Source: Sinohyriopsis cumingii
Lineage: Eukaryota; Mollusca; Bivalvia; Unionida; Unionidae
Direction of reading: 5' to 3'
Length of the DNA: 64,000 nt
Assembly: GCA_028554795.2 (NCBI GenBank)
Contig: CM068839.1
Coordinates: forward strand, 45,009,117 to 45,073,116
In this document: in pieces, positions 19,477-57,241 of the stretch
Layout of the letters: every line of letters starts with the position of its first letter
Position numbering within the stretch: position 1 is the stretch's first letter
Translations under genes and position numbers: made by a program
Notes under the pieces: model-generated
Told to the model about the DNA's origin: nothing
The model's database searches: none
What the model saw: the letters and a program-made list of their open reading frames with translations, nothing else

Positions 19477-19800
19477 GGGTTCAAAAGGATTTGTGAGGCG
19501 GAGTACACTACAGTTATATTATATACTTACGGTTTCATAAGAATTTGTGAGGTGGCGTACAAAACAGTTATATTATAAACTAACGGTTTCAAGAGGATTT
19601 GTAAGGTTTCTTTTAAGACATTTATATTATATACTAATGGTTTCATAAGGATTTGTGAGGTGGCGTACAAAACAGTTATATTATAAACTAACGGTTTCAA
19701 GAGGATTTGTAAGGTTTCTTTTAAGACATTTATATTATATACTAATGGTTTCAAAAGGATTTGTGAGGTGGCGTACAAGATAGTTATATTATATACTAGT
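19477..19800. repeat. 54-bp minisatellite, 6 units, alternating two unit types
   Basis: Units start at 19477, 19531, 19585, 19639, 19693 and 19747, exactly 54 bp apart. They alternate between a type with GTGAGGTGGCGTACAAAACA and a type with GTAAGGTTTCTTTTAAGACA, so the higher-order period is 108 bp. Because 54 is divisible by 3, the minus strand stays open across the array; that frame is probably not a gene. Confidence 0.95.
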
Positions 19801-20463: not shown

Positions 20464-22330
20464 ATGAATATTGTCTGTTGCTTTTTAGAGTCATTCATAA
20501 TATGTTCTATAATCCACGCTCATAAAAAACAAAATACCGCCGGTATTCTAGAGTGCATGAAAACAATATCACTAGCTATTAAATTCAGATACAGTCCGGA
20601 ACGCCTTTGACCTTATCCTTGGACAGATCTTAGATGCATCCCTCTCAAACACTTGCAAAGGGGAAGCGAGGCTTTTAGACAAGCTAAGCGATCTATATCA
20701 GCTACTTCTACCCCCATAACATTGCCCCAAGTGCATCCCGTGCCGATCGTCCATGAGCCCCTCGCGCTTGAAACTACCAACTGACGTCTTCGTTTCCCAA
20801 CTAAACATTATTGTGAATCCTCGACCATTTACTCAAATTCTACCGTGCGTGGATCAATTGCCTGATTCGATTCAGTTATAGCGCTAACACTCAACAACTT
20901 GGCAAATATGATGAGACCGCTTTCTGCTACTGTGAGAATTTACCAACGACACTAGTAACACTCGATATAGTCACGAGAGCAAATCTGATCGGTGCACAGA
21001 TAATGGTTATCATGGAAACGATTCCTGCCAACAGTTATCTGGGCGGCGAGTATACAAATCGGCACCGGAATGATACACATCTGCCTTTTTCACGAGTAGG
21101 GCAGTTCTTCTGATGATTTCCTCTCTCCTTTTTGGTTCAATTAGTTACTCTGATTGGTAACTTGGAGAGCCCATCACATTTCTTCTTTTAAAAATGTTAC
21201 CGCATAATATACATGTTCTACAGGCTTTCTTTTTACGGTGCAGGGCGCACACGCTCTTCTAACGAATTACTTTCTTTAATGATACAATTGCCATGCAATC
21301 ACAACAAATATCTACGTGGAAAATATTTAAGCCTATTTAAGCCTCATGCGTTTATGTGCTCTGGAGGTCCATGTAGAACCATATTGACTACATCATTGAT
21401 TGGTGTCGGAAGCGATCATTCTCGTTTTCGCCCAAGAACTGTTACACGTAAAAATGCGTCCTTGTTCAATAACAGTCCAGTTATTTCTTTTCTTAACCGA
21501 GTCAATGTTAGTTCACATAACTGTATGCGATTCAATAGGCGTGTATTTGTCAATGAATTTCACGTCAATGTTACGTTCAGCGACCGGGAGTTTTTACGCG
21601 CTAATGCAATGATACCAAGTTGGCCTTGAGTCGATATAGGTACAAAAGACTAGTCCTGACTGTCGATTTATATCTGACTCTTGACAAGGGCTATTTTGAG
21701 CGTAAAATAGGTTATGTTAACCATGTTTGCATGCAGATATTCAACGACAAGAGGAAGAAAATTGCGATCGATATGAACATGACCTCCCAGCTAATTCAAT
21801 ACGCCGTCTTCTGATTCAGCCCTATCATCACCATTGAACAAATTCTTCAGACGGTTTCTGATAGGCGTTTAGCCTAAAAGGAATTCAAGCAACTAATAAA
21901 TGTTCAAATAGCATCGTACTATGAGCCCGTCCACCGTTAAGCTGCTATCTTGAAGCACCAAAACACGTTTTGCTACGCTAACACCTCGTCGGGTATTTAT
22001 TTTGCCATGAAAATTAATGAACACTTTTCTTTCGAGTCCTTTTTGAGCGCGAGAAATGACACCGTTGACACACATCCGAATCTAATGAACGACATCAAAC
22101 TCGTTTTTGTGGTCAGTGAAGTGGTTAGCAAAGGAATACACAATATGAATTTTGTCAGCTTAACTTTACTATCAACACCACTATCACGCCCAATTGCACC
22201 GATGGCGTTTCACTATTCATGTAAAATTACCGTGTTATTGACTCAAAATATAGCCATACAAACATTGCTGCAAAACCCAAATATACGACAAAGAAGAAAC
22301 GCGCACGAAAACATTAAAGAGAATTTATAA
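20464..22330 (+). pseudogene. Decayed long gene of unknown family, candidate endogenous viral (plus strand)
   Basis: A run of protein-like frames, broken by stops and shifts, covers about 1.87 kb (about 620 codons if joined). Islands: 20,464-20,610 (ATG at 20,464), about 20,590-20,877, 20,886-21,113, 21,213-21,629, 21,620-21,814 and 21,950-22,330. The islands at 20,886 and 21,213 share one frame, and those at 21,620 and 21,950 share another, as expected from one ancestral gene with a few indels and point stops. Base composition is clearly less AT-rich than the flanks. I recognise no reverse transcriptase, transposase, integrase or cellular enzyme motif. The end is lysine/arginine-rich in one frame. 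It converges on the minus-strand pseudogene starting its stop only about 50 bp away, a packing more usual in viruses than in animal DNA. Viral origin is inference. Confidence 0.45.
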
Positions 22331-22382
22331 ACTTGTTCTCGACGATGAAGAAATCTAAGAGCATACTCTTCAATTTTGCTAC

Positions 22383-25300
22383 TTAAAGCAGACGTTGCAT
22401 CGTTCCTGCGAGGTTTCTGACTCTTCCGATGGTACTAAAGCTATGCTCTGCAAGGTTAATGCTTCCTTGTGAACCATAATTGACGTGCCAGAAGATCTCG
22501 AATAATTGTCGCAACAATGGTAATGAGGTCAATACGTGTTTTGGATTACCTCCCGTTGATGAAATGTTGTGCGTTGTAGATGCCATTGTTAATAAATCCA
22601 CTCTGAGTACTGTCGGAGTAATTACGACCATCGGGCTGTATAAGTTTTCCCTTCATTCCCAAGAAGGCTTTACACAGGATAGAGATGCACCATGCACTTG
22701 TAATTCCCAATTTTAACTTATTTAGGTCCATAGCAGGGTACGAGTAATACTAACGTCCGCATCCAATTATGGCATTTTCATTCATCAAATCGGTGGTGGC
22801 ATGTGTGAACTCACTGTGAAGTTGATGCTTAATTGATGACTTTAATGACCTTCACTGGTATTTTTTCGTGGAAAAAAGCGCAATCGTCTCCCGTTGTACC
22901 TGTGGAACCTTTGGTTATGGATTAATTAATCGCCTTAGTCGATCTCTAATCAATTGAAACTCATTTCCATCCCATAATTTTTATGCGGTTTACAGCAACA
23001 CAGCTCACCGTGTTTAGCTATCGGTACATAGCGTGATGTAAGGCCCGCTAGTGCATTTAGGGCTTCCGCATACAATCCCTGGATACAATCGCCAGGACCA
23101 TTAAATGCTAGGTAGATATCTAATGTACATTTGTCTCGTCAAGGCCTCCACACAGAGATTCAACACGTTCCGCTCTAGTGCATAGGTCGAGGATTGTAAC
23201 ATGGAGATATACAGACATCAGCCTCAGTAGGGAAAATCCTAAGCAGTGAATAACCTGCAAAGCAGTGTCATTCCCGAGGTAGTTCATTTTGGGTTATCCT
23301 CCTCACAGTATCTGCCACTGATCGTGTCACCGGTTAGATTAACTTGAATTGCTCTGGTGATTCAAACAATATCTTTTGTGCAGTTCTGGAAGGGTTCTAA
23401 TGGATAGCTCATCAAAGTTCATTATTGTAACGTATATCATCGATGCTTTTAAGTTCAAGTAGCAATGTGTGGAACTTGGCTGCGTACATAATATCGTCCT
23501 TGAGCAGCCGTTGACAAATCGATGCGACCTCGTTGATGACCTCTAGCGTGTTGTTGCCTGCGCAAACTAATCCTATGAGGGTTTCAGACGTTCATTTACA
23601 TACACTCAGTTGGGGCTGGACCTAAGAGGTGAAGCTAACAAAGCTGTCTCATAGTTTAATCTGCGATCTCCAAGAACTTTACCACTTTTTGGTGGTTGAG
23701 TCGGAAAGTCTCCACTGAGGAGTCTTTGTCGGCCGCAGTAGGTAGATCCTCTATGTACCGGGAAATATTTTCTCCATTGTTTCTGTCCTTTTCAGCTTCT
23801 TTGTTACTATATAGTACAATGAAAATATAACATTCGTTTCACATTTCATTTTTATGGTAAAGTCTTCCAAGTCCCAACCACTCAAGGAAATAGCCATCTG
23901 GGGAATTCACTATTGATGTAACTCGTGTGCGTATCCACGGGCAGTTCATGCCCCAAAAACTTTTTTTATGTCCAAGGGATTGGGTACATCATCAAAAACT
24001 TCAAATGATCTTAAAATGTCATCCGCCGTGCTCGTACACTAAATGTTTGGAAGTGGTATTGACAACCTTGTTGACAAACTCATGTGATTGTTCTTGTGTA
24101 ATATTCACAAGTGCTTTTCAGACATCAACTTGTATGTCTTCGAACACTGTATGAATGTGTGATAATCGTGCTAATGCAAGCGTAATGGAGCCATGTTTCG
24201 TATCTGTTCTCATTATCTTTTCGATTGTTACCTCGACTTTTCCCACCTGTAATTTCTAGTATGGGTCTAATCAGCGGTCCATCCATTAAACCATTAAATT
24301 GTTTTCGATGACCGCTGTGAGGTCTTCTTGTGCTTCTTGTCGCAACATACTGTAGCATATCTTTGACACTTTCTCCAACAGCTATATGCTCCCGAAAATT
24401 TCTAGTTTTCCACGGGCTCGCACGTGGCGTCAGTTACCATTATGAGGGCATCATGCCGAGCAGGAATTATTAATTTATGATTGGTCCATGGATATGACTT
24501 TGCCCGGTCAAATGATCTTTAAACAATTAAATTACTCTTGCGACGCGGTTGAAAGCTAAAGACGCGTTCCGGCTGTATCGTGCAAAATGGTTTCATTGCC
24601 ATAACCACTGGCGCTTCACTCCTTTAATGCAATTACAATCTCGGACCTACTTGATATTTCCTGATCAGCTAACGCGCTCTGCGGTTAAAAAACAAGCGAC
24701 AAAGACAAGTGAGCTGTATCCACAAGATGCGATGTCTTCAAATAGATTATATGTTGTGGAAGAAATTAAAGGTCATTGTCACTGGTACACAATTACCGTC
24801 ATGATCGATGGTAGCAAACATCCTTGGACATCAATCTCGTTCTGTCCGTACGCGTAAGTGATTATTCTATCAAGGTTAAACTCGTTCACTTGGTATCAGC
24901 TAAGACAAACTATATTTGGTGCAATGGTACGCACTCAGGCATGTTTCCAAGTCCATATAAAAAATGGTGTGTGTACCATTTCTGTGAATTCACGTCGTTC
25001 TCTCAAACATTACACTTGCCTGAGTTCTTTAGGAGCTCATTTGTCATTCTTGATCTTTTTGCCGGAGACATTCTTTTTTGCGTACCTTTTGGTTTGCAGT
25101 CTCAAGTATTCCTCGACTGGTCTGCCTATGCATCCGTCTTTCAATTTGCCCACAACTCTCTTTCTGACCTTGCTGAACATAGTATGGTTCTTTGCTTGAG
25201 CCAACCTCACATGCGATCGATCTCTCACCGATTTTTGGGTACATATCATCAGTGGTAACATACCTTTGTAGAGCATCCGTACACGGGCACCATAGGTGAA

Positions 25301-25837
25301 CTCCTACAAGAGAAGTATTGACAAGTCCAACACGGACATGCCAAAGTATACAGGCTTCATTAGATTCAGTTTTCGTTGTTGACTGTGGCTGCAACCAATT
25401 CGTCGTCAAACATTTAATGCAATTCGAATGTGGGGTAGACAGAAAGTCTGAACATTTTCTCCCGAATACCTTCCCCAAAAAGGTCAGCACCGATACGTTT
25501 ATACAGGTTTAACACTAACGTAACCCTTACTCAGACTGTCGAAACCATATACGATCAACAGGAAGCAAAATGAGCGCGTGCATCGTGCATCATTGCTGCA
25601 TAATCAAGTGTCTGTTCTTATCTGAAGCTAAGGACTAAACGTTCCAGATGCAGCCCAACAAGCATCCATGAACAAGATTTGACGCAAAATGTTCAACATT
25701 ATATTCTTATTGGCCTGTGTGACTTTGTATTCGTTGTGGTTTTCTTTACAATTTATCAAACTATCATGCATTTTTCCGCTTTGGCAAGGTAACCCATAGG
25801 TACGAACCTCGCACATTTTAGCATAGACGTAGATCAA
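22383..25837 (-). pseudogene. Decayed very long gene of unknown family, candidate endogenous viral (minus strand)
   Basis: Reading leftwards from an ATG at 25,837 to a stop at 22,383-22,385, protein-like frames succeed one another for about 3.45 kb (near 1,150 codons if joined), switching frame at least six times with scattered stops. Clear islands: 25,628-25,837; about 25,440-25,500 (GEGIREKMFRL); 25,037-25,310 (very basic, ends in a lysine-rich stretch); about 24,020-24,330; about 23,420-23,580 (NNTLEVINEVASICQRLL); about 22,960-23,110; and 22,383-22,731. I found no motif of a known transposon enzyme. Length and head-to-head packing with the plus-strand pseudogene suggest a structural or replicative protein of a large DNA virus, but I could not match it to a family. 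A decayed host gene or unknown giant transposon remains possible. Confidence 0.45.
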
Positions 25838-25844
25838 TATAGTT

Positions 25845-26250
25845 CTAAATTGTCAATGATGGCTTATGCTGGTATTATTAAACCTTCACAATCAAATGAT
25901 ATATCTAATTTTAATAGATAAAGGTAAAGCAACAAATTATTGATAGTGATTGACGAAACATATTAAAATAATAAAGAAATGATTTTACTCGGATAGGCGT
26001 TTTATAAAATATGTGAATCATCCGCGATGGATCATAGATGTTAAGGTATATCCTTGAATATCGTACTGGCTATAAAGGGAAATCACTCTTTCTGACTCTT
26101 AGTGCCACCTAATAAATCAATTGACGTTTCTCTGAAGCTAGATACTAATGACCTCTGTTTGCATAATGACAGGTATCAATCGAGGTAAGAATAATATGTG
26201 TTCAGTATGGTTTTTATTCAGATACGTCATGAAAGCTATTTTAGCACAAT
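25845..26250. other. AT-rich spacer
   Basis: AT content rises again immediately after the pseudogene island; nothing else seen. Confidence 0.5.
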
Positions 26251-26254
26251 GTTG

Positions 26255-26510
26255 GGGACCCGGTTAGCCCAGTGGTCGAAAAAGCTCGCCTTTACCAATA
26301 ATTGACATTTCTCCTATGTTTTCGTGGGCTCGAGTATCAGACTCGGCTAACGTGGGTATTTGAGAAAGTCATCCGTAGCTTCCTGTGGATCGGTTGTTCT
26401 TTCCTAAGGTTTTCAGGGTTCTGCCTGCCCCAGTTATACTGGCCGCCGTGTATAGCATATCTTGTGCTGAGAATTGGCGTTAAACTCCACAAACAACAAT
26501 AACAACAACA
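26255..26510 (+). mobile_element. tRNA-derived SINE, near full length
   Basis: The head carries a pol III A-box-like TAGCCCAGTGG (26,265-26,275) and a B-box-like GGGCTCGAGT (26,325-26,334). A body with GTGGGTAT, TCGGTTGTTCTTTCC and ACTGGCCGCC follows, then GGCGTTAAACTCC and an (AAC)n-like tail. The body matches the copy at 28.65 kb, so both belong to one family. SINEs of this kind are transcribed by RNA polymerase III and mobilised by a partner LINE. Confidence 0.85.
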
Positions 26511-54585: not shown

Positions 54586-54945
54586 CTATGCACCTACCAT
54601 GGCCTGTGCATCACAAACACCTTCTTCAAGTGTAAGCCACAACACAAAGTGTCATGGAAACACCCCAGATCTCATCACTGGCACCAACTCGACTTGGTCA
54701 TCACCAGGCGCTCTGCCCTTAACAGCGTCATCTCCACCAGAACCTACCACAGTGCAGACTGTGACTCCGACCATGCCCTTGTGAGCAGCAGAGTGCGACT
54801 ACAGCCACACGCGCTACACCGCTCAAAACCAAAAGGACGTCCTCGCATAAACACTGCACAGATGTCAGTCCCTGCCAAGGTGGAGGAGTATGTGTCTGCC
54901 CTGAACAAGGCTCTCCAGGACCTGCCTGAGTATGACGCTACAAGC
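54586..54945 (+). pseudogene. LINE endonuclease C-terminus, one frameshift away from RT
   Basis: The frame is open from the first base of the element. It contains YHGLCITNTFF, WHQLDLVITRR and the catalytic end motif CDSDHALV (SDH codons 54,766-54,774), all typical of the apurinic-type endonuclease of non-LTR elements. After about 54,945 this frame reads nonsense, while the RT frame becomes sensible from about 54,935. One base lost or gained near ACAAGCCAAGTGG explains it. The N-terminal endonuclease is missing through 5' truncation, so this domain is dead. Confidence 0.8.
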
Positions 54946-57241
54946 CAAGTGGAACGCCATGAAGGGTGCCATCTACAGTACAGCTATGTCAACGTTTGGC
55001 AAGAAGGAACGACCCAGCCAGGACTGGTTCAATGCACACCTATCAAGGATGGAACCACAAATCGAGGAGAAACGAAAAGCCTTCATAGCTTACAAAAAAT
55101 GCCCTAATGAACGGACGCTTGCTGCTCTCAGAAGTGCCCGAAGTAACACCACACGCATTGCTAGACAGTGTGCGAACGAGTACTGGCAACAACTGTGTGA
55201 AGGAATCCAGCGCAGTGCCGAGTCCGGACACATCCAAGGCATGTACAGTGGCATCAAGAAGGCTCTAGGCCCTACAGTGAAAGTAGTCGCTCCCCTGAAA
55301 TCCCTGACGGGAGAGAAGATCACAGACCGTGGGCAACAGATGGCCAGATGGGTGGAGCACTACTCAGAACTATACTCCCGAGAAACGTCAGTCACTGATG
55401 CAGCCCTCAGCAGCATAAAGAATCTGCCCACCATGGAAGAGCTCGACAAAGTGCCAACCTTAGAGGAGCTCAGCAAAGCAATCGACTGCCTTCCAAACGA
55501 CAAAGCACCAGGTAGTGACAGCATCCCGCCCGAAGCTATCAAACGTGGAAAACCAGCATTGATTAAACCACTGCACGACCTACTTTGCCGCTGCTGGGAG
55601 GAAGGAGTAGTCCCCCAAGACATGCGTGATGCCACAATTGAGACCCTTTACAAAAACAAGGGCGACCGCAGTGACTGTAATAATTACAGAGGGATCTCGC
55701 TCTTGAGTATTGTTGGTAAAGTGTATGCCCGCATCATACTCAACAGGCTGCAGTTGCTGACAGACCGTGTGTACCCGGAATCACAGTGCGGCTTCAGAGC
55801 AGGCAGGTCGACGACAGACATGATCTTCTCCCTACGACAACTCCAAGAGAAGAGCAGAGAGCAAGGTCAACCACTCTACATGATGTTCATCGACCTCACC
55901 AAGGCCTTTGACTTCGTCAGCAGGAAGGGCCTTTTTGAACTTCTGAGTAAGATCGGTTGCCCCCCAAAACTCCTCAGCATGATAATCTCTTTCCATGCAG
56001 ATATGAAGGGAACAGTCCTGTATGATGGATCATCCTCAACTTCCTTCCCAATTAACAGTGGTGTGAAGCAGGGCTGTGTGCTGGCACCAACACTTTTTGG
56101 GATCTTCTTCTCCCTGCTCCTGTCCTACGCCTTCGACACGTCCACGGATGGCATATATCTACACACCAGGTCTGATGGGAGGCTGTTCAACCTGGCACGA
56201 CTGCGCTCAAAGACCAAAGTGAGAGCTGTGCTCATCAGGGAGATGCTTTTTGCAGATGACGCAGCTCTTGTGGCCCACACCGAGGAAGCCCTCCAGAGAC
56301 TGGGAGACCGTTTTGCTGTTGCCTGCACGCAGTTTGGTCTCACAATCAGCTTGGAAAAAACAAATGTCAGCGTGCAAGATACCACCATTGCCCCTTCAAT
56401 CAAAATCAGCGGTGTCACCCTGGAAGCAGTCAACAACTTTACCTACCTAGGGTCAACCATCAGCAACACTCTCTCGATTGATATGGAGCTGGACAGAAGG
56501 CTTGGAAAGGCAAACACCATCATGGCTCGATTAACAAAGAGGGTTTGGGAAAACAACGCGCTGACAGAGCACACCAAGGTCCGAGTCTACCAGGCCTGCG
56601 TTCTCAGCACCCTTCTATATGGAAGTGAGACGTGGAGTACCTACATGAGGCAAGAACGCCGGCTCAACTCCTTCCATATACGGTGCCTAAAACGCATCCT
56701 GAAAATCAGCTGGCAAGACCGTGTTCCACACAGCGAGATCCTGCAGCGTGCAAGTACCCCCAGCATGTACTCCCTGCTAATTAAACGCCGCCTTCGATGG
56801 CTGGGTCACGTCCGACGCATGGAGGATGGAAGGCTGCCAAAGGACATCTTATATGGACAGCTGGCTACTGGCATGAGAAGAGTCGGACGCCCCTCACTCC
56901 GTTTCAAAGATGTGTGCAAGAGGGACATGAAGGCATGCAACATTTCACCCGATGGCTGGGAAGAGCTGGCTGAGGACCGAGGCACCTGGAGACTGATGGT
57001 AAACAATGGCATATCAGTCGCTGATGCGAGGAGAGGCCAGTTGGCGGCAGAGAAACGTAAGAGAAAGAAGAACGCAACAACAACCACAGTAACGCAGACT
57101 TCCCAGTATGTCTGCACCAACTGCAGTAGGGACTGTCACTCACGTATAGGCCTGTACAGCCACAGCAGACGTTGCCAACAGAGACAGACAACACCCCAAG
57201 GGCGCTATTCGCATGGTCTTTCGAGACCAAGTCGCCAATGA
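54932..57241 (+). CDS. LINE reverse transcriptase (769 codons, intact frame)
   Basis: Reverse transcriptase of a non-LTR retrotransposon, which copies the element RNA at nicked chromosomal DNA. Coiled-coil-like linker to about residue 150 (RGQQMARWVEHYSELYSR), RT block 0/1 KAPGSDSIPPEAIK (about 190), CNNYRGISLLSIVGKVYARI (about 248), CGFRAGRST (about 285), motif A FIDLTKAFD (319-327), GVKQGCVLAP (377-386), catalytic FADDAAL (FADD 440-443), then thumb. A conserved C-terminal block follows (RRLRWLGHVRRMEDGRLPKD, about 619-638) and a zinc-finger-like C-x2-C-x12-H-x3-C (residues 728, 731, 744, 748). All RT catalytic residues are present and there is no internal stop. The ATG at 54,932 is not the original start; the frame was joined to the upstream endonuclease. 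Copy is truncated, so unlikely to move by itself. Confidence 0.92.
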   Translation: MTLQAKWNAMKGAIYSTAMSTFGKKERPSQDWFNAHLSRMEPQIEEKRKAFIAYKKCPNERTLAALRSARSNTTRIARQCANEYWQQLCEGIQRSAESGHIQGMYSGIKKALGPTVKVVAPLKSLTGEKITDRGQQMARWVEHYSELYSRETSVTDAALSSIKNLPTMEELDKVPTLEELSKAIDCLPNDKAPGSDSIPPEAIKRGKPALIKPLHDLLCRCWEEGVVPQDMRDATIETLYKNKGDRSDCNNYRGISLLSIVGKVYARIILNRLQLLTDRVYPESQCGFRAGRSTTDMIFSLRQLQEKSREQGQPLYMMFIDLTKAFDFVSRKGLFELLSKIGCPPKLLSMIISFHADMKGTVLYDGSSSTSFPINSGVKQGCVLAPTLFGIFFSLLLSYAFDTSTDGIYLHTRSDGRLFNLARLRSKTKVRAVLIREMLFADDAALVAHTEEALQRLGDRFAVACTQFGLTISLEKTNVSVQDTTIAPSIKISGVTLEAVNNFTYLGSTISNTLSIDMELDRRLGKANTIMARLTKRVWENNALTEHTKVRVYQACVLSTLLYGSETWSTYMRQERRLNSFHIRCLKRILKISWQDRVPHSEILQRASTPSMYSLLIKRRLRWLGHVRRMEDGRLPKDILYGQLATGMRRVGRPSLRFKDVCKRDMKACNISPDGWEELAEDRGTWRLMVNNGISVADARRGQLAAEKRKRKKNATTTTVTQTSQYVCTNCSRDCHSRIGLYSHSRRCQQRQTTPQGRYSHGLSRPSRQ

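Follow-up and report, generated by a model that had tools for sequence, protein, structure and literature searches.

Polinton-like elements, double jelly-roll (DJR) capsid proteins and Tlr1-like replicases are already known. According to the accessible part of PMC11071308 the Tlr1-like replicase type is described for Polinton-like viruses and transpovirons, its helicases carry a substitution of the first Asp in motif C, and tails of the HNH or GIY-YIG type are also found. According to the available text of PMC10120064 only cnidarians contribute metazoan major capsid proteins (MCPs) that fall outside the main Maverick-Polinton cluster. PMC11071296, as far as accessible, deals with numerous chimeric viruses of animals that belong to this wide class, and relatives of the elements treated here may be among them. 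Mavericks are mentioned as present in the molluscan genomes analyzed in PMC10294476 (accessible part), no mollusc or bivalve terms occur in the available portions of PMC12721341 and PMC10328495, and among the literature matches listed from a partial collection none, as far as titles and the opening lines of abstracts show, concerns Tlr1-type elements in bivalves. For the freshwater mussel Sinohyriopsis cumingii a genome of 2,904,942,185 bp with 36.07% GC and 19 linkage groups has been reported, and the words ‘Maverick’ and ‘Polinton’ do not occur in the main text of that report as available (PMC10969987). We analyzed a stretch of 64,000 nucleotides from this species (the window; GenBank assembly GCA_028554795.2, contig CM068839.1, here C16:45009117-45073116 of an assembly of 2,904,868,851 bases). 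An island at positions 20,464-25,837 of the window is very probably a dead, internally deleted remnant of an integrated virus-like element from the Polinton/Polinton-like supergroup.

Capsid gene and coding signal of the island

The island and its parts are as follows (positions in the window):

20,464-25,837, no strand assigned: whole island, very probably part of a decayed, internally deleted Polinton-like element; the recognised genes are on the minus strand
22,027-22,749, minus strand: core of the DJR MCP gene (PF21738 family), found by tblastn with the MCPs of the relatives L040 and L046; 7 in-frame stops
21,843-21,935, minus strand: additional piece of the capsid gene, read in a different frame and covering residues 388-418 of the L040 MCP; 1 stop
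23,436-23,585, minus strand: C-terminal end of g333, the gene upstream of the MCP
22,953-23,138, minus strand: open piece between g333 and the MCP
21,835-21,842, no strand assigned: putative deletion joint, at which the MCP end, the protease and neighbours would be missing
20,894-21,834, no strand assigned: high-copy block, probably a piece of one or more genes of the same elements; 29 copies aligned, strand tests split
23,586-25,837, no strand assigned: right part of the island

The MCP of L040, an intact relative in the same genome, matches positions 22,749-22,027 on the minus strand with its residues 77-354 (gapped tblastn, 31% identity, E 1.6e-21). L046, a second element, has an MCP that aligns to almost the same places (E 4.4e-24). 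As in L040, g333 lies upstream of the MCP; it is a 333-residue L040 protein without a Pfam family (L040:2479-3477, minus strand), and its match in the window shows 50% identity over 50 columns (tblastn, E 1.8e-7). The scores in the real island were 85.1 bits for the L040 MCP, 95.5 bits for the L046 MCP and 44.3 bits for g333, compared to best scores of 26.9 and 26.6 bits for the two MCPs and 25.0 bits for g333 in 300 dinucleotide shuffles of the island, where any match at all appeared in 131/300, 137/300 and 115/300 shuffles, respectively. About 23,100-23,171 of the open piece between the two genes is matched in the loci L029, L035 and L038. Its reading as a pVI-like gene, corresponding to the 148-residue gene of L046, scored below some of the shuffles and the name was dropped.

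The initial annotation had seen here two convergent genes with stops roughly 50 bp apart and had found no family for either protein. Both frames do exist, ending at 22,330 on the plus strand (21,941-22,330) and at 22,383 on the minus strand (22,383-22,652). The capsid match is one gapped alignment on the minus strand that continues through both stops of the supposed pair, and thus the rightward frame, from 22,027 to 22,330, reads the leftward capsid gene in antisense. Instead of a convergent pair there is a single capsid gene at this place, the leftward side has its family in PF21738, and since this is a Pfam family the element, which had been called undescribed, is known at the level of kind.

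That the island consists of coherent but decayed coding frames, as first proposed, agrees with our results. It contains 7 stop-free pieces of at least 100 amino acids (five plus, two minus), a number reached in 0/300 dinucleotide shuffles (mean 2.1); the longest piece has 154 amino acids and was equalled in 34/300. When the island is compared with its copies the mismatches follow a three-base rhythm whose phase shifts along the sequence, so a codon-position signal, which had been proposed as a check, is present. Such a rhythm is as expected for decayed coding DNA and points to a coding ancestry of the island. The GC content in 500-base windows is 0.38-0.44 in the island versus 0.29-0.37 in the left flank; the reported enrichment over the flanks holds on the left, and the right flank is mixed.

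Intact relatives and their place among Polinton-like elements

Long open frames are found in L040 (C2:641900-651800), which was reached via the copy L034 and its neighbouring stretch. A 524-residue protein of L040 belongs to PF21738 (double jelly-roll, 6.5e-17 in Pfam), and a structure model of the MCP relative P0001 (pLDDT 77.6) gave DJR capsid proteins as fold matches. L034/L040 further carry an rve integrase (PF00665, 5.8e-9 in L040), an HNH endonuclease (PF13392), a coiled-coil protein, two more genes and a 1,169-residue protein with an SF1 helicase (PF13245, 1.5e-9) and a C-terminal HNH-like tail (phrog_1035). An adenain-like protease is present in the relatives below the Pfam cut-off (PF00770, E 0.0058 in L034 and 0.019 in L046). 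Aligned with ten database relatives, the 1,169-residue protein shows the shared motifs IDMxACYP-like, HLRxSML and ATDS, the last of which is ATDS in 8/9 rows covering the site and AVDS in L040. By sequence these look like the polymerase motifs A, B and C, the naming of the motifs being our own, and the protein would fit the description of Tlr1-like helicases in the accessible part of PMC11071308. Its structure model (pLDDT 55.2) was too poor for a fold search or for judging the palm.

In a protein search with the MCP 20/20 matches carry PF21738 (among 7,997 candidates sharing most words). The sole match of these 20 that is named by organism comes from another freshwater mussel, Sinanodonta woodiana (P0012), and 0/20 are named by their source as a virus or mobile element. 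No relatives were found in IMG/VR for three queries, and a sequence search of the PDB gave no match for the MCP or the polymerase-helicase.

The likeness of the relatives to Tlr1 of Tetrahymena lies in the combination of an rve integrase, a DJR MCP and a protein with polymerase-like motifs, SF1 helicase and C-terminal HNH. They differ from Tlr1 in having an animal instead of a ciliate host, an MCP of PF21738 and an adenain-like protease, and the window copy itself, unlike its relatives, shows no detected replication or integrase gene. A canonical-looking Polinton, L039 (C2:622000-632000), with an rve integrase carrying a chromodomain, an A32-like ATPase, a protease and MCP-like and minor capsid-like frames, was seen nearby, with about 8 kb between the end of its frames and the frames of the L034/L040 element. 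Compared with this Polinton, which stands here for canonical Mavericks/Polintons and adintoviruses, the L040/L034 integrase is 30% identical (3.8e-24) and the protease 31% (5.5e-10), and the DJR capsid fold is shared with L040. In contrast, the L039 MCP gives no BLASTP match to the L040 MCP (E up to 1), the chromodomain that Pfam detects in the L039 integrase is absent from that of L040, and in place of the plain pPolB of canonical Mavericks/Polintons L040 seems to have a replicase in which polymerase and helicase are fused.

A genome search with the MCP gave 35,481 first-look candidates, a number that is not a copy count as only the best 82 were scored; 82/82 are 92-100% identical, 71 of them without a stop and 11 with one. 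These near-identical copies (e.g. L040:216-1787) give the appearance of a large and recent expansion within the genome of an animal. At C33:2218230-2292973 five capsid-region matches are spaced by about 14.9 kb, with one gap of two units, and this is likely a tandem array of whole elements.

The recognised late genes of the island are read leftwards in the order g333, short unassigned gene and DJR MCP, followed by the proposed deletion and then by the block piece. In a living element of this type the rve integrase would insert the DNA into the chromosome, the polymerase-helicase would copy it, and the DJR capsid proteins would package it, with the adenain-like protease acting in maturation. 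The window copy has probably lost part of its capsid gene and has gained stops and frame changes. As to membership in the Polinton/Polinton-like supergroup, rve integrase and adenain-like protease are unmatched in the window copy and present in the relatives, the protease below the cut-off; because the window copy is a deleted fragment we file the island as a fossil fragment and not as a complete member. A Tlr1-like replicase of its ancestor would follow from the relatives. The chances seem about even to us that the fossil comes from an ancient representative of a Tlr1-type lineage of Polinton-like viruses (rve integrase, polymerase-helicase, PF21738 capsid) carried by animals. In this reading the lineage would have accompanied freshwater mussels for a long time and would continue to multiply in them as elements that encode capsids and may have kept their mobility, some of them in tandem arrays, and repeat annotation would largely have missed it.

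Copies, the proposed deletion and the strand of the high-copy block

The existence of copies elsewhere in the genome, anticipated in the initial annotation, was borne out. With the island as query, a DNA search of the genome yielded 41 matches (40 scored out of 346 first-look candidates): the window, a twin and 39 places with partial matches, of which 37 concern 21.09-21.84 kb of the window. The twin at C16:57838877 is 98% identical and lies 12.8 Mb away on the same contig. Because its identity extends across the full 8.4 kb compared, including the flanks, it looks like a segmental duplication and not like a separate insertion. The loci L035, L037 and L038 match several separate island segments in conserved order, and because of this colinearity the left and right halves of the island belong together. 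In L035, L038 and L045 the segments flanking 21,835-21,842 are roughly 0.8-1.75 kb further apart than in the window, and in L035 and L038 protease matches lie between MCP and block. These alignments lead us to infer that the window copy has an internal deletion near 21,840.

The block left of this joint matches nothing among the proteins compared and no Pfam family. For its analysis 29 copies were used, leaving out the window, the twin and loci duplicating longer ones, and in 19/29 of these loci the stretch compared contains matches to Polinton-like proteins (E up to 1e-3). Counting each late gene once per locus, 31/31 sightings are right of the block on the minus strand, distributed over 17/29 loci: protease 9, fibre-like 7, minor capsid-like 5, MCP 5, g333 2, the 148-residue gene 2 and a 184-residue gene 1. 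Among these sightings 4/31 are L034 matching its own proteins, and the names ‘fibre-like’ and ‘minor capsid-like’ are what we presume from weak matches. Integrase matches around block copies are on the plus strand, 3 right and 1 left of the block.

A convergent pair might nevertheless exist further left than first proposed. In this alternative, which is compatible with a Polinton-like fossil, a plus-strand block gene (20.9-21.83 kb) would face the capsid gene with the joint near 21,840. We regard it as possible and on balance doubtful; the evidence from the block copies divides along its length. In the six-frame comparison among copies, with X placed at stops, the plus strand is best at the right end, in 15/19 copies at 21,520-21,700 (minus-plus 4-15) and in 13/16 at 21,600-21,834 (3-13). 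Against this, minus is best in 6/6 copies at 20,894-21,130, and the overlapping middle chunks at 21,088-21,540 are about even (minus-plus 11-10 and 13-15, i.e. minus in 11/21 and 13/28). The codon-substitution score is best on plus in 11/21 overlapping windows and on minus in 10/21, with the largest minus margin at 21,746-21,835, and by the order of codon positions 11 overlapping windows point to minus and 6 to plus. One ATPase match (L016) and one integrase match (L018) on the plus strand left of the block speak for a plus-strand gene, each from a single copy. A 145-residue plus frame at 21,192-21,626 was rejected as a gene, as it places the third codon position on well-conserved sites and has no relative among viral contigs. 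Genome searches with a minus-strand piece of L026 (150/150 scored matches at E up to 3.8e-9) and with a plus piece of the window (67 matches from 417 first-look candidates, best 1.6e-11 apart from window and twin) cover different block parts and copies and do not discriminate between the strands. At the block L047 and L048 have long open frames, which were likewise discarded as genes, being largely microsatellite.

Other origins and meaning of the fossil

Several results weigh against a Polinton-like origin of the whole island. The MCP identity in the window is only about 31%, no integrase, polymerase or protease match beyond chance is found in the window copy, and block and right part match no known protein in Pfam or the protein comparisons. 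Polinton-like matches are absent from the stretch compared in 10/29 block copies. Element ends and target-site duplications were not found, and no terminal inverted repeat was present in the stretches compared (L040 8200-9901 with L034 1-7200 or with L039), where L040 appears to end before the element does.

An ordinary transposon, either a long interspersed element (LINE) or a cut-and-paste DNA transposon, or a host gene remnant is very improbable as the source. Such an origin would suit the many block-like places (346 and 417 first-look candidates) and a block that matches no named protein. The capsid homology contradicts it for the capsid part, and none of the 20 island pieces scanned reaches the cut-off of any Pfam family, though the same library detects frames with RVT_1 (6.1e-32) and RNase_H (2.5e-19) elsewhere in the window; the check for LINE and DNA-transposon proteins suggested at the outset thus came out negative at this cut-off. 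An origin from a herpesvirus (e.g. a malacoherpesvirus) or from a different large dsDNA virus is the least probable and hardly credible: apart from the first impression it has in its favour only that DJR capsids of large dsDNA viruses are among the fold matches, and the island matches PF21738 capsids of elements with rve integrase, adenain-like protease and SF1 helicase, with nothing beyond the fold-level similarity common to DJR capsids. Herpesviruses have a different, HK97-type capsid fold, and the 20 pieces gave no Pfam match above cut-off for a herpes-type capsid or terminase, which short decayed pieces could miss. The initial idea of an integrated dsDNA virus or giant transposon was right in kind, as the fossil is very probably Polinton-like, and of the herpes-like variant no sign was found.

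The right part of the island is matched by L035 at 24,193-24,407 and by L037 at 25,082-25,458, and in a scan of 9 of its pieces no Pfam family passed the cut-off. The match of a reverse-transcriptase-like L047 frame to 24,094-24,240 (E 0.002) is weak, one among many queries, and we do not believe it. Beside the capsid fossil of L037 a 565-residue open frame without Pfam family (L037:7425-9119) is possibly the gene of another transposon. A 54-bp tandem array (19,480-19,798) lies directly left of the island, and a dispersed repeat at 26,242-26,499 is matched in several of the compared loci. The two control frames in the window are an open LINE-type reverse transcriptase frame of 778 amino acids (54,905-57,238) and an open RNase H frame at 1,084-2,091 that contains a 153-bp tandem duplication.

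For the annotation of such islands the case is a caution, as antisense open frames can give the false impression of two convergent genes. The fossil suggests that Polinton-like elements with capsid genes have resided in the genome of this mussel for enough time to decay, and its near-identical capsid relatives are more striking than the fossil itself. If the L034/L040-type elements are indeed Tlr1-type, an animal would be added to the replicase type described, in the accessible part of PMC11071308, for Polinton-like viruses and transpovirons, and the pearl mussel could serve to ask whether particles are still made.

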